Shown here: positions 52,640 through 57,335 of the stretch, piece after piece
Position numbering within the stretch: position 1 is the first letter of the stretch
Layout of the letters: each line of letters begins with the position of its first letter
Source of the DNA: Thalassorhabdomicrobium marinisediminis
Lineage (GTDB): Bacteria > Pseudomonadota > Alphaproteobacteria > Rhodobacterales > Rhodobacteraceae
Length of the DNA: 64,000 nt
Direction of reading: 5' to 3'
Assembly (NCBI RefSeq): GCF_003072065.1
Contig: NZ_QCYG01000001.1
Coordinates: 62,001-126,000, forward strand
Program-made: the position numbers and the translations under genes
The notes under the pieces: generated by a model
Database searches by the model: none
Seen by the model: only the letters and a program-made list of their open reading frames with translations
What the model was told of the DNA's origin: nothing

Positions 52640-53680
52640 TCAGGCGGCTTCGTCTTCCTCGACGATCAGGGTGATCGTGCCCGCATCGACGGCAGCGCGG
52701 ATCGCGCTGACCACGGCGGTCTGGGCCGCCTCTGCTTCGGACTGCTTGATCGTACCGACTTCGCCCATCTCCTCACGCAGGTTGTCAGCCATCCGGGTGG
52801 ACATGTTGTCGAGCAGGTGATCGGCGGCCGCAGCCAGCGGCCCGTCCGTGCCCGCCGCCGCGCCAAGCGCACGCACCAGATCGGCCTGATCGATGTCGCG
52901 CAGGATCTTGGGCACGTCCAGCGCCGCCAGCCGCGCGGGAATGTCGGCGAAGGTGAAGATCGCCTTGCGCACCCCCTCACCAAAGCTGCGATCCTCGGCC
53001 ATGAGTCCTTCAAGCACCTGATCCCTGGTCGAAGCCGGGCTGGAGTTGAGGATCGCCCCGATGCGGCTTTCGGCGGTCTCGGCAAAGGCGGGCAGGGCCG
53101 CGCCGCAGTATTGCTGCGCCAGACCGGTGCCGATCCGGGCGATGGCATCGGCGCGGATGGTGGTCGTGCGCGACATGGCATAGGCGATGCGGCGCGCGAC
53201 CTCACCGGGGACAAGGCCAAGCAATTCCGCCGCCTTCGCCGTGGGCAGTTTGGACAGCAGGATCGCCGCAACCTCGGGGCTTTCGCCTTCGGTGATCGGG
53301 ATCATCTCTTCGGCGGAAAGGTCCATCACGATGGCCCAGGGGTCGCGCCCCGAGGTGCCGGCCGCTTCTTCGCGCAGCCGCGCCACGGTGCTGGACGAGA
53401 TGCGCCCGTCGAGCGATTTCAGCGCCGCCTCGACGCTGCCCGGCGCGGTGAGGGCGACGTCAGCCAGTTCGGTGGCAAATTCGCGGGCCACGCTGTGCAG
53501 CGTTTCGCGGTCGATCAGGTTGAGCGCGCCCAGCTCCCGCGTGAGGCGCGCCTGCGCCGCTTCGGGCAGGTCGCTCAGCGGCAGGTCCCCGCCATCGCGC
53601 AGCAGCAGTTGCACCACCATCGCGGCCTTGCGCGAACGCGAGAGGGAAGAACGGGGGGCGGTTGTGGGAAGTCCGGTCAC
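52640..53680 (-). CDS. fliG: Flagellar motor switch protein FliG
   Basis: Cytoplasmic rotor protein that meets the stator and sets torque and switching. The 346-aa protein has the FliG N, middle and C domains: SRSRKAAMVVQLLL, SPEVAAILLSKLP (middle, EHPQ-like region weak), and the C-terminal VPKILRDIDQADLVRAL followed by NMSTRMADNLREEM. A GTG start is used. No other flagellar gene is in the window. It converges with the DUF1223 gene, 2 bp apart. Confidence 0.9.
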   Translation of the reverse strand: MTGLPTTAPRSSLSRSRKAAMVVQLLLRDGGDLPLSDLPEAAQARLTRELGALNLIDRETLHSVAREFATELADVALTAPGSVEAALKSLDGRISSSTVARLREEAAGTSGRDPWAIVMDLSAEEMIPITEGESPEVAAILLSKLPTAKAAELLGLVPGEVARRIAYAMSRTTTIRADAIARIGTGLAQQYCGAALPAFAETAESRIGAILNSSPASTRDQVLEGLMAEDRSFGEGVRKAIFTFADIPARLAALDVPKILRDIDQADLVRALGAAAGTDGPLAAAADHLLDNMSTRMADNLREEMGEVGTIKQSEAEAAQTAVVSAIRAAVDAGTITLIVEEDEAA

Positions 53681-53849
53681 GGGCGGCGATCCTTGGAATC
53701 TGGTCGCCCCCGTTTAACCGCAGCTTGGTGAAAGCAGTCTTAACGGGCGCCGCCCGAATCGCGCCACGGTGATAAAGCTGCGGTCGCGCAGCGCCCAATA
53801 ACGGGCAAGCGGCGCGGGTATGCACCTTTAGGTTGTATCTTAGGGGGAC

Positions 53850-54335
53850 TTATTGGTGCGTCATTTTGACCGAGAGGTCATGCAGACGCGCGCGCAGATC
53901 GTCGCTCATCCCGGTTTTTGACGCGGTCAGGTCGTGCAGATGTTTGACGCAGCGGCTCAGTTCCTCGATTTCCTCATCGGTGAATTCGCGGTCATTGCGC
54001 GCGAAGCCCGCGACGCTGCGGCTGCCATCGGTTTCGGTTGAAATGGCCACGCCGAAGCCCATCTCATGCTCTTGTGATTGGGCAAAAATATCGTGGTCGT
54101 CTAAATGTTTAAGGGAAGACCAACGCTTCGAGCCAGTTTCGCTGAGGCCCCAGCGCACGATGGGGTCAACCATGACGTAACCTTTTTCGGAGTAGGTGTC
54201 GGTCCAGGCTTTCGGATAGGTCTGGAACAGAAAATCAGGAGAGGTGAGGCGGATGTGGAACGCAATGGCGAAGCCCGAGGGCGACATTGCCTCCATTGTT
54301 TCCAAATGGGATTTAATCTTCGAGAGCTCAGGCAT
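53850..54335 (-). CDS. LuxR-like autoinducer-binding protein lacking the DNA-binding domain
   Basis: 161-aa protein made only of a LuxR-type autoinducer-binding domain. The pocket residues of the family are all present: Trp44, Tyr48, Asp57-Pro58, Trp72 and a Gly near 93-95. It ends at LHDLSVKMTHQ with no GerE-type helix-turn-helix, and the frame downstream holds none, so this is a whole gene rather than a visible break. It is divergent from the full-length LuxR gene, with a shared 144-bp promoter region. It could bind AHL without acting on DNA, as an antagonist, heterodimer partner or sink. Role inferred. Confidence 0.85.
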   Translation of the reverse strand: MPELSKIKSHLETMEAMSPSGFAIAFHIRLTSPDFLFQTYPKAWTDTYSEKGYVMVDPIVRWGLSETGSKRWSSLKHLDDHDIFAQSQEHEMGFGVAISTETDGSRSVAGFARNDREFTDEEIEELSRCVKHLHDLTASKTGMSDDLRARLHDLSVKMTHQ

Positions 54336-54360
54336 TGGTATTGGTCCACTCGCTTTGCAG

Positions 54361-54390
54361 TTGCCAGACTGCGCCAGGTCGCAGTATGCT
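54361..54390 (+). promoter_or_regulatory. Candidate luxR promoter
   Basis: TTGCCA (54361-54366), an 18-bp spacer and TATGCT (54385-54390). The 18-bp dyad lies inside the spacer, so a bound regulator would cover the promoter. Confidence 0.45.
54368..54385. promoter_or_regulatory. Lux/tra-box-like 18-bp dyad
   Basis: ACTGCG-CCAGGT-CGCAGT is a perfect 6-bp inverted repeat with a 6-bp centre, the size of known LuxR/TraR boxes. It sits between the two divergent LuxR-type genes, so LuxR could act on both. Binding is inferred. Confidence 0.5.
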
Positions 54391-54479
54391 ATATGCTTTA
54401 GTCGGTCGCCGGATGGAAGGTGTTCTTGTTCCCAAATAACAGCGACACCTACTTTGATCGACCGACGGGGTGCCCCGCG

Positions 54480-55088
54480 GTGAGAGAGCTTGTTTCTACA
54501 GACGATGTCGCAGAGCTGGCGACGAAAGGGTATTACCTTGCCTTGCGCGTCGGTTTCGCCTTTCCCCTGGAAGAGGTGAACGAACTGCCCCCAGCTTGGG
54601 TCGAGCACTACACCACGCACCGGTTCATGCTGCATGATCCTGTGATCCGCTGGAATTACGCCAATATCGGTGCCATCCGCTGGAGCGAGATCACGTTGGA
54701 CGACCCTATGCGCGTGCTTGATCAGGCGCAGACCTTCGGGCTGCGCTATGGGGCGGCGGTCGCCTGTTTTGACGGGGACCGCGGCGGCCAGCGGTCCTTC
54801 GGCCATTTTGCCCGGGCCGACCGGGAATTCGAGCAGGACGAGATCGACGCGCTGTACCGGTATGTGGAAAAGCTGCACCGCGCGAAAGCACCTCCGACGA
54901 ATTTGACAGCGGCGGAGCTTGAAGCCCTGAAAATGGTCATGGACGGGCTGCGGCTGAAACAGATCGCCCATGCGCTTGGCGTGACCGAGGGGGCCGTGAA
55001 GCAGCGTCTGAAGAACGCCAAGACAAAGCTCAACGCGCAAACCTCCGCGCAGGCGGCGGCCATGGTCAAAGAATTTAACCTGATTTGA
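54480..55088 (+). CDS. luxR: LuxR family quorum-sensing regulator
   Basis: AHL-responsive transcription factor. In the 202-aa form the ligand pocket has Trp40, Tyr44, Asp53-Pro54, Trp68 and Gly91; the GerE-type HTH covers about 142-202 (LTAAELEALKMVMDG, IAHALGVTEGAVKQRLKNAK). I place the start at GTG 54480 so its N-terminus lines up with the paired HTH-less protein; GTG 54420 with GGATGGAAG just upstream would add 20 residues and also fits the promoter. It lies 148 bp upstream of luxI. Confidence 0.9.
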   Translation: MRELVSTDDVAELATKGYYLALRVGFAFPLEEVNELPPAWVEHYTTHRFMLHDPVIRWNYANIGAIRWSEITLDDPMRVLDQAQTFGLRYGAAVACFDGDRGGQRSFGHFARADREFEQDEIDALYRYVEKLHRAKAPPTNLTAAELEALKMVMDGLRLKQIAHALGVTEGAVKQRLKNAKTKLNAQTSAQAAAMVKEFNLI

Positions 55089-55090
55089 TA

Positions 55091-55146
55091 GCGGCAAAAC
55101 CTTAACAAATCGTTAAGAAATCCCGGGGGAGGGACCTCTTTGCCGC
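55091..55146 (+). repeat. Nested inverted repeats between luxR and luxI
   Basis: GCGGCAAA (55091-55098) and TTTGCCGC (55139-55146) are perfect 8-bp arms; inside lies CTTAAC-AAATC-GTTAAG (55101-55117). In RNA this would fold as a multi-hairpin element just after the luxR stop, perhaps terminating or controlling luxI. Confidence 0.6.
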
Positions 55147-55236
55147 CTAGGGGGGAATTAAGGGCCTTTCAATTATTCATGGTTAACAATTAATTTCACC
55201 CGTCCCTAAATGAACTCGCCTAATAGGAGAGTTCAA

Positions 55237-55860
55237 ATGAAAACCATCACTTTCGACTTGTCGAATGCCCACCAGCACGGCGCTGCTTTCTTTGACTACC
55301 TCGCCCTGCGCAAACACTTCTTTGTCGATACGCTCAACTGGCAAATCCCCCACAATGCCGAGGTCGAGATGGATCAATACGACAACCCCATGGCGCGCTA
55401 CGCGCTGGTTCTGGATGACGGGGGCCGCGTGTTGGCCGGGGCGCGGGCGATGTCCACGGCGGCGCAGTGGGGCGATCATACCTACATGCTCAAGGATGCG
55501 ATGACCGGCAAGCTGTCGAGCATCCCCGGCGATCTGATCCCCGATCTGATCGAGAGTCCGGAGGTCTGGGAATGCACGCGGCTGGTGATCTCGCCCGAGG
55601 TCAAATCCATGCGAATGCGCACCCGGTGTCTTGACAGCATCGTCGAGGGGCTGATCGGAATGGCCCGTGACGAAGGGGCGAACACGTTGATTTCCCTGTC
55701 GAACCTGTGGCTGCTGCGGGCGCTCAAACGGTTGGGCTATGGCGCGGAACTGCTGGGCGCACCCTATCGCAACGATGAGGATGGCCACAAATACGCGGTC
55801 ATGGCGATTGCTGCGCGACACAAGGTGACGACGGCCCGCGAGGGGCAGGCCGCCGCGTAA
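55237..55860 (+). CDS. luxI: Acyl-homoserine-lactone synthase (LuxI family)
   Basis: Makes an N-acyl-homoserine lactone from SAM and an acyl carrier. The 207-aa protein has the invariant LuxI residues: Arg25, Phe29, Trp35, Asp46, Asp49, Arg70, Glu112 and Arg115 (WECTRLVISPE). ATAGGAGA precedes the ATG. It follows luxR and is convergent with purB. Acyl chain length cannot be read from sequence. Confidence 0.93.
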   Translation: MKTITFDLSNAHQHGAAFFDYLALRKHFFVDTLNWQIPHNAEVEMDQYDNPMARYALVLDDGGRVLAGARAMSTAAQWGDHTYMLKDAMTGKLSSIPGDLIPDLIESPEVWECTRLVISPEVKSMRMRTRCLDSIVEGLIGMARDEGANTLISLSNLWLLRALKRLGYGAELLGAPYRNDEDGHKYAVMAIAARHKVTTAREGQAAA

Positions 55861-55895
55861 GCGCCGCCCGACCCGAAGGCCGGGCAGGGGCCGGA

Positions 55896-57206
55896 TCAAT
55901 CCGCCGCGCCGAACACGCGGGCGAAGATCGTGTCCACGTGTTTGGTGTGGTAGCCGAGGTCGAACTTCTCGCGGATGGCATCTTCGCCCAGGGCGGCGAC
56001 TACTTCCGCGTCGTTCAGCAGCTCTTGCTGGAAATCCGTGCGCTCTTCCCAGACCTTCAGGGCGTTGCGCTGCACCATGGCATAGGCATCCTCGCGGCTG
56101 ACGCCGGCTTGGGTGAGCGCCAGAAGCACCCGCTGGGACATGACCAGCCCGGGGAACTTGTTCATGTTGTCGAGCATATTGTCGGGGAAAATCAGCATCT
56201 TGTCGATCACCCCGGTGAGCCGGTTCAAGGCGAAATCCAGCGTCACGGTCGCATCGGGCCCGATGCCGCGCTCCACCGAGGAATGCGAGATGTCGCGCTC
56301 ATGCCAGAGTGTGACATTCTCCATCGCCGGAATCACCGTCATGCGCACCAGCCGTGCCAGCCCGGTGAGGTTTTCGGTCAGCACGGGGTTTTTCTTGTGC
56401 GGCATCGCGCTTGAACCCTTCTGGCCCATGGAGAAGAACTCCGCCCCCTCAAGCACTTCGGTGCGCTGCATGTGGCGCACTTCCGTGGCGATGTTCTCGA
56501 TGGACGACGCGATGACGCCCAGGGTGGCGAAGAACATCGCGTGCCGGTCGCGGGGGATCACCTGCGTGCTGATCGGCTCGGGGCGCAGACCGAGTTTTTC
56601 GCAGACGTGTTCCTCGACCCGCGGGTCGATGTTGGCGAAGGTGCCCACGGCGCCGGAAATCGCCCCCGTCGAGACCTCGTCCCGGGCCTGTTTCATCCGC
56701 GCAAGGTTGCGGTCCATCTCGGCATAGAACCGCGCGAAAGTCAGGCCCATGGTCGTGGGTTCGGCGTGGATTCCGTGGCTGCGGCCCACGCGCACGGTCA
56801 TCTTGTGCTCCATCGCCCGTTTCTTCAGCGCCGCCAGCAGGGCTTCGAGATCCGCGATGAGGATATCGGCCGCGCGCACCAGTTGCACGTTCAGGCAGGT
56901 GTCGAGCACATCCGAAGATGTCATGCCCTGATGCACAAAACGCGCTTCATCCGCGCCGACGTGTTCGGCCAGATGGGTCAGGAAAGCGATTACGTCGTGC
57001 TTGGTGACGGCCTCGATCTCGTCGATGCGGGCGACGTCGAACTCCACATCCTTGGCCGTCCAGACCGCTTCGGCATTCTCGCGCGGGATCACGCCAAGGT
57101 CGGCCATGGCGTCGCAGGCGTGGGCCTCGATCTCGTACCAGATGCGGAATTTCGTGGCGGGCTCCCAGATCTGGGTCATTTCGGGGCGGGCATAACGGGG
57201 GATCAT
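55896..57206 (-). CDS. purB: Adenylosuccinate lyase
   Basis: Cleaves SAICAR and adenylosuccinate in purine synthesis. The 436-aa protein has the superfamily signature GSSAMPHKKNP, TSSDVLDTCLN and VGRSHGIHAEPTT. ATG 57206 (MIPRYARPEM) is the usual start; a TTG two codons upstream is less likely. Convergent with luxI over 35 bp. Confidence 0.96.
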   Translation of the reverse strand: MIPRYARPEMTQIWEPATKFRIWYEIEAHACDAMADLGVIPRENAEAVWTAKDVEFDVARIDEIEAVTKHDVIAFLTHLAEHVGADEARFVHQGMTSSDVLDTCLNVQLVRAADILIADLEALLAALKKRAMEHKMTVRVGRSHGIHAEPTTMGLTFARFYAEMDRNLARMKQARDEVSTGAISGAVGTFANIDPRVEEHVCEKLGLRPEPISTQVIPRDRHAMFFATLGVIASSIENIATEVRHMQRTEVLEGAEFFSMGQKGSSAMPHKKNPVLTENLTGLARLVRMTVIPAMENVTLWHERDISHSSVERGIGPDATVTLDFALNRLTGVIDKMLIFPDNMLDNMNKFPGLVMSQRVLLALTQAGVSREDAYAMVQRNALKVWEERTDFQQELLNDAEVVAALGEDAIREKFDLGYHTKHVDTIFARVFGAAD

Positions 57207-57335
57207 GGGCAACGGGCCTTTACGTGAGGTTCAAAAGCAGATGCCCGCGTCATAAGCTGCGCGCAGGTCGGTCACAAGAGAGAGGGCAGGCCGCAAGGGG
57301 CGGTTTTGCCGCCGGACGGGCGGAACGGGGGTCGC

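Follow-up and report, generated by a model that had tools for sequence, protein, structure and literature searches.

A widespread HTH-less LuxR-type receptor of Rhodobacteraceae as a probable signal-dependent antagonist of its CerM-type neighbor

We analyzed a 64,000-nucleotide stretch of Thalassorhabdomicrobium marinisediminis DNA (the window) and found a three-gene quorum-sensing module in which N, a LuxR-type receptor without an HTH, probably serves as an AHL-dependent antagonist, or off-switch, of M, the full-length LuxR-type regulator encoded divergently from it, with an AHL synthase gene, luxI, downstream of M (Table 1). This assignment of function is made by analogy with the closest precedent, CerN/CerM of Cereibacter sphaeroides (PMC11655674), a kind of system known since 2024; the window locus is real and conserved and, as judged from sequence, very probably functional. 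New in this analysis are the breadth of the module, the presence of its own luxI, the status of the W57F substitution in CerM as an exception, an element in the luxI leader, and a CtrA-type box between M and luxI.

The first-pass annotation, made from the letters of the DNA alone, had described a 161-residue protein that keeps the LuxR ligand pocket but has no DNA-binding domain, next to a divergent full-length LuxR with luxI downstream. Family searches bore this out. Autoind_bind was the sole Pfam family reported on N (E 6.2e-15, 55.4 bits, residues 35–129), with no HTH family, while M carried both Autoind_bind and GerE, and LuxI carried Autoind_synth. The start sites were corrected. GTG 54480 (202 residues) is probably the start of M, rather than the mechanical ORF start GTG 54420 (222 residues), because many homologues are about 202 residues long and the resulting 144-bp N–M gap lies within the range seen in relatives. 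For luxI, ATG 55237 (207 residues) is probably the true start in preference to 55210 (216 residues), since a Shine-Dalgarno sequence precedes it.

Table 1. Features of the N–M–luxI locus (positions in the window)
Feature	Position	Strand	Basis
N, HTH-less LuxR-type receptor, 161 aa, assigned as CerN orthologue	53850–54335	−	ORF, Pfam, pocket, tree, fold model
Conserved element acTCgCttT.aGGTTGC, N–M gap, near N start	54348–54364	+	Motif search over 64 gaps
Possible M promoter, TTGCCA-N18-TATGCT	54361–54390	+	Read by eye
M, full-length LuxR-type regulator, assigned as CerM orthologue	54480–55088	+	Autoind_bind and GerE (Pfam), tree
CtrA-type box TTAA-N7-TTAA between M and luxI	55102–55116	+	Only such site in 64 kb
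Possible luxI promoter, TTAACA-N17-CTAAAT	55183–55211	+	Read by eye
Inverted repeat, 3′ arm containing luxI Shine-Dalgarno	55211–55235	+	Fold, pairing over 49 loci
luxI, AHL synthase	55237–55860	+	Pfam Autoind_synth, 52.5 bits

The locus is flanked by a FliG-type gene (52640–53680, minus strand) and, on the other side, by an ORF (55896–57212, minus strand) that is presumably purB. Of 65 loci compared, 25 have a FliG-like gene behind N; of the 30 with enough flank, 11 have purB behind luxI. The FliG-type gene is the only FliG_C match in the host genome, in which a family search gave no match for FliF, FlhA or flagellin. The genome contains five Autoind_bind matches and two LuxI proteins. Its second receptor/luxI pair, at C32 (L005), includes a full-length receptor that groups with GtaR-type receptors in the tree; the ORFs preceding it resemble, as we take it, rpoA and rplQ, presumably the surroundings in which gtaR and luxR1 lie.

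In the window, N has all six pocket residues (W44, Y48, D57, P58, W72 and G95, the last given by the annotation as Gly without a number). Across 68 N proteins, that of the window included, W44, Y48, D57 and P58 were invariant, and W72 and G95 were present in 67 and 64, respectively. In 66 M proteins, a count that excludes the cut-off M of L034, the Tyr, Asp, Pro and Gly were found throughout, W57 in 65 and W85 in 61. Identity between N and M of the same locus had a median of 34% (24–45%; 66 loci) and was 29–30% in the window. An AlphaFold2 model of N, built from six input rows (five N proteins and one GtaR-type stretch), had a mean pLDDT of 78.0, with values below 50 at residues 24–32, and placed a helix at residues 145–159 beyond the domain. 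Among the 50 Foldseek matches listed for this model, the top ones were LuxR-type receptors (TM 0.46–0.66 over the query), and the nine PDB matches obtained by sequence were RhlR, QscR and CviR. A C-terminal tail, L..S[VI]..TH, was common but not general among the 68 N proteins (Ser in 49, Thr in 46, His in 39); we assigned no functional role to it.

Candidates for N were chosen by eye from searches with P0001 and with a profile of 23 HTH-less sequences, and ORFs were classed with models built in this analysis. Of 295 genomes of the family, 150 had a match to P0001, and these matches include full-length receptors. The listing for the profile covers 308 of 394 genomes of the family (E <= 0.001) and likewise has full-length receptors further down. 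At least 68 distinct N proteins were present in at least 67 of the 394 genomes; these 67 represent 66 genera, two genomes sharing the window's genus. M adjoined N in 67 of the 68 loci, divergently in 64 and on one strand in three; at L089, M was not found in the 8.45 kb examined. luxI came after M in 58 of the 67 loci, in three of which (L086, L095 and L099) a CerR-type luxR lay between them. This arrangement is far from chance. The annotation's view of a complete, stand-alone HTH-less gene tied to its own circuit is supported by the relatives, and its proposal to look for such divergent pairs in related genomes led to 64 divergent pairs within one family. A wide spread in the class can be set aside: in a class-wide draw, 2 of 385 genomes matched at E <= 1e-20, a cut-off that leaves weaker matches outside the listing, namely the window's own genome and another member of its family. 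What had been described in one species, a signal-dependent antagonist encoded next to the regulator on which it acts, would extend to no fewer than 66 genera of a single family, in most cases with an AHL synthase gene alongside.

Some loci depart from this plan. One genome (G006) carries two N genes (L016 and L090), each with its own M, the second pair without luxI in reach. N and M lie on one strand in three related loci (L034, L069 and L072), and a 323-kb plasmid of Qingshengfaniella alkalisoli has a match at the L034 N coordinates.

A tree of the receptor domain was built from 148 rows (68 N, 64 M and 16 others, of which the tree identifies three as M). M and the GtaR-type receptors formed a clade (SH-aLRT 94), so that M is closer to the receptors of the GtaR/GtaI and LuxR1/LuxI1 systems than to the CerR type. 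The GtaR/GtaI type is itself present in the host genome as the C32 pair, and N was found beside none of eight GtaR–LuxI loci with flanks of about 1.5 kb. In the free tree, the N rows stood in no resolved order beside the M/GtaR clade and four CerR-type rows, and N was not shown as one clade; constraining all N rows to a single clade gave a likelihood 63 units above that of the unconstrained search (p-AU 0.939), a fit by which one N clade is not rejected. Because the label N means the lack of an HTH match, the test lies in the position of full-length proteins, and none stood among the N rows of the 148-row tree. The annotation had named full-length versions in relatives as the sign of a recent truncation; such an event is ruled out by this result, and N is, on the evidence of the tree, an old lineage with one old origin. 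N and M distances were correlated (r 0.638, 66 loci; a value reached by none of 999 permutations), with a partial correlation given LuxI of 0.548 (54 loci), in which the contribution of shared genome ancestry is only partly removed. The fastest-evolving of the three proteins is N, with a mean pairwise difference over 54 loci of 0.593, against 0.475 for M and 0.431 for LuxI.

In those sections of the 2024 report that concern the pair, CerN is a LuxR homologue without an HTH, its gene lying together with that of CerM upstream of cerR, and the evidence consists of mutants, pull-down and gel shifts (PMC11655674). CerM binds DNA without AHL, which TraR needs, at TNT(N5)AAGACA(N2)T, and represses ctrA indirectly. 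CerM was pulled down by CerN only with AHL; CerN plus AHL weakened CerM–DNA binding and relieved a CerM-repressed reporter, and AHL alone already weakened CerM binding in gel shifts (PMC11655674). CerM protein was notably lower in a cerN mutant, the defect of which was gone once cerM was removed. The substitution W57F was suggested to make CerM a poor AHL binder, the signal source is CerI, the output runs through flagella, and the gene-order comparison with three species described there gives synteny for gtaR only (PMC11655674). No mention of CerN was found in a 2026 review on the protein partners of LuxR, and a literature survey by titles and the starts of abstracts returned, for CerN-like genes, nothing beyond this report, its correction and the Dinoroseobacter shibae papers.

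We used L086 as a Cereibacter-type stand-in for C. sphaeroides WS8N. In this locus N is divergent from M, which is followed by a CerR-type luxR and then luxI, and the Pfam scores (N, 65.7; M, 46.4 and 40.5; CerR-type, 128.9 and 61.8; luxI, 282.8) nearly equal those of the published CerN (66.1), CerM (47.5 and 42.9), CerR (128.1 and 63.4) and CerI (281.5) (PMC11655674). L086 agrees with the published genes not only in order and scores but also in W57F, its M being the sole one of 66 with Phe at this position. L086 N fell inside the N group of the tree, and L086 M inside the M group. A scan with L086 N gave six loci: Cereibacter johrii (99%), Luteovulum azotoformans (82%) and Rhodobacteraceae bacterium HTCC2150 (51%), all three with the order N-M-R-I; two Thioclava loci (49–50%; L106 and L107), with N and M but no luxI in reach; and a Dinoroseobacter MAG (43%), where the match is a full-length GtaR-type receptor. 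The divergent N–M layout is common to the window, L103 and L104.

Two named Cereibacter-type genomes with the same divergent pair, and the position of such proteins inside the N and M groups, identify the window pair by homology as CerN/CerM orthologues with their own luxI. The systems share an HTH-less receptor with an intact pocket beside a CerM-type LuxR, and N–M identity in the window (29–30%) is near the published 31% for CerN and CerM (PMC11655674). They differ in that the window luxI, of another type than CerI, comes directly after M with no cerR between, and in that the flagellar families FliF, FlhA and flagellin were not found in the window's genome. They also differ at the CerM W57 position, where CerM has Phe and the window M keeps Trp (W60). 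With Trp in 65 of 66 M proteins, Phe appears to be a species trait that does not define the CerM type. The W57F explanation offered for CerM consequently does not generalize, which makes the division of a single signal between N and M a testable question.

Other HTH-less receptors are more distant. The annotation's comparison with TrlR of Agrobacterium holds insofar as TrlR is an HTH-less LuxR-type protein acting on a full-length receptor, but the closest precedent is CerN. TrlR shares 88% identity with TraR, of which it is a truncated copy (PMC11655674; PMC13043044), whereas the window N belongs to an old lineage and is only 29–30% identical to M, an identity that rules out a TrlR-type origin. 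LuxB of D. shibae resembles N in having an autoinducer-binding domain without an HTH and a gene upstream of a luxI (PMC4046655). The protein that we took as LuxB, a 308-residue HTH-less autoinducer-binding protein on D. shibae plasmid NC_009958.1 (L116:42-968(-)), aligned weakly with N, over 66 positions at 26 bits. This match rules LuxB out of the N group and suggests that HTH-less receptors probably have more than one origin.

On the Cereibacter model, M would hold its DNA sites, at putative target genes, as long as AHL is scarce. AHL from LuxI, the presumed signal source, would then accumulate and load N, and AHL-loaded N would pair with M through the ligand-binding domains, so that M would come off the DNA. 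The model has limits in that the Cereibacter signal comes from CerI, another LuxI type than the window luxI, and in that CerM binding was weakened by AHL even without CerN (PMC11655674). Since the window M keeps Trp, it may sense AHL itself, with a division of labor different from that in Cereibacter; and M may also be stabilized by N, given that CerM was notably reduced without CerN (PMC11655674). Judging by gene content, the published flagellar output cannot apply to the window's host, as its genome gave no match to the FliF, FlhA or flagellin families.

The annotation had suggested an antagonist, an AHL sink or a heterodimer partner, and the pattern in relatives argues by analogy for the first and last of these. 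N might do more than remove M from DNA, acting as a co-regulator whose complex with M works at other sites or which stabilizes M. The lower CerM level in the cerN mutant (PMC11655674) and the divergence of N and M in step are consistent with such a role, but we consider it unlikely, because the disappearance of the cerN defect without cerM and the relief of CerM by CerN plus AHL in the reporter amount to antagonism (PMC11655674). N as a sink, buffering AHL with no contact with M, would account for the invariant W, Y, D and P and for the missing DNA-binding domain; a sink needs neither the pairing with M (67 of 68) nor co-divergence, and the orthologue CerN pulls down CerM (PMC11655674), which leaves this role little probability. 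Least credible is the view of N as what is left of a tandem luxR, decaying or without function: the faster evolution of N would fit decay, but the pocket is invariant in 67 genomes, the frames are open throughout, and N has one old origin.

AHL-dependent antagonism of M by N remains our preferred reading, and it can be extended, tentatively, to an older and more elaborate circuit. N, M and luxI would be a module of three genes with a long history, its two receptors opposed in effect and both responding to a single signal dedicated to them; a hairpin hiding the luxI ribosome-binding site would gate synthesis of that signal post-transcriptionally, and CtrA would feed back on luxI. The Cereibacter form would be derived, having lost its own synthase and taking its signal from CerI. 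We regard this scheme as a whole as possible rather than probable.

The luxI leader of the window folded into a putative hairpin at −12 kcal/mol (z −6.0), and five further leaders, picked for good stems, gave z −3.5 to −6.4. Of 58 leaders taken, 9 without a clear Shine-Dalgarno were excluded, and 49 were anchored on the Shine-Dalgarno alone. At least 7 of the 11 positions pair in 29 of the 49, and in 0 of 8 GtaI-type leaders (best, 6). Stem pairing covered 60.5% of cells, versus 35–43% when slid and 56.8% in shuffles (none of 500 reached the observed value). The number of cells with a change on each side (47 vs 31.4 expected by shuffles; 1 of 500 as high) and the covariation score (0.180 vs 0.136; 1 of 500) exceeded the shuffles, whereas pairs with two-sided change (8 vs 6.9; 117 of 500) and pair types (27 vs 24.6; 87 of 500) were not unusual; all such counts over the 49 leaders are inflated by related sequences. 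The repeat is possibly an RNA switch, with which the G-U pairs and paired changes fit, a DNA operator, with which the fixed 5-nt spacer fits, or both. Rfam gave no match in 53700–56000 up to E 1, and among titles and abstract starts we found no related literature on a luxI Shine-Dalgarno hairpin or its translation.

The sequence GTTAACA, in the region of the possible luxI promoter, occurred in 16 of 53 M–luxI gaps, versus 0.5 expected by shuffling. TTAA-N7-TTAA, which we take to be the CtrA consensus, occurred once in the window (0.02 expected) and in 8 of 58 M–luxI gaps, the window included (0.27 expected); the perfect box is absent from this gap in most relatives. It occurred in 1 of 64 N–M gaps (0.15 expected) and was therefore rejected as a general feature there. 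CtrA sites were reported before luxR2 of D. shibae (PMC4046655). The element acTCgCttT.aGGTTGC was considered as an operator of M and set aside, having, by eye, no convincing match to the published CerM and GtaR sites. It was nevertheless present in about 60% of the 64 N–M gaps, with a log-likelihood ratio of 271.9 versus 52–60 in four shuffled sets, and may be a binding site, part of a promoter or the N leader.
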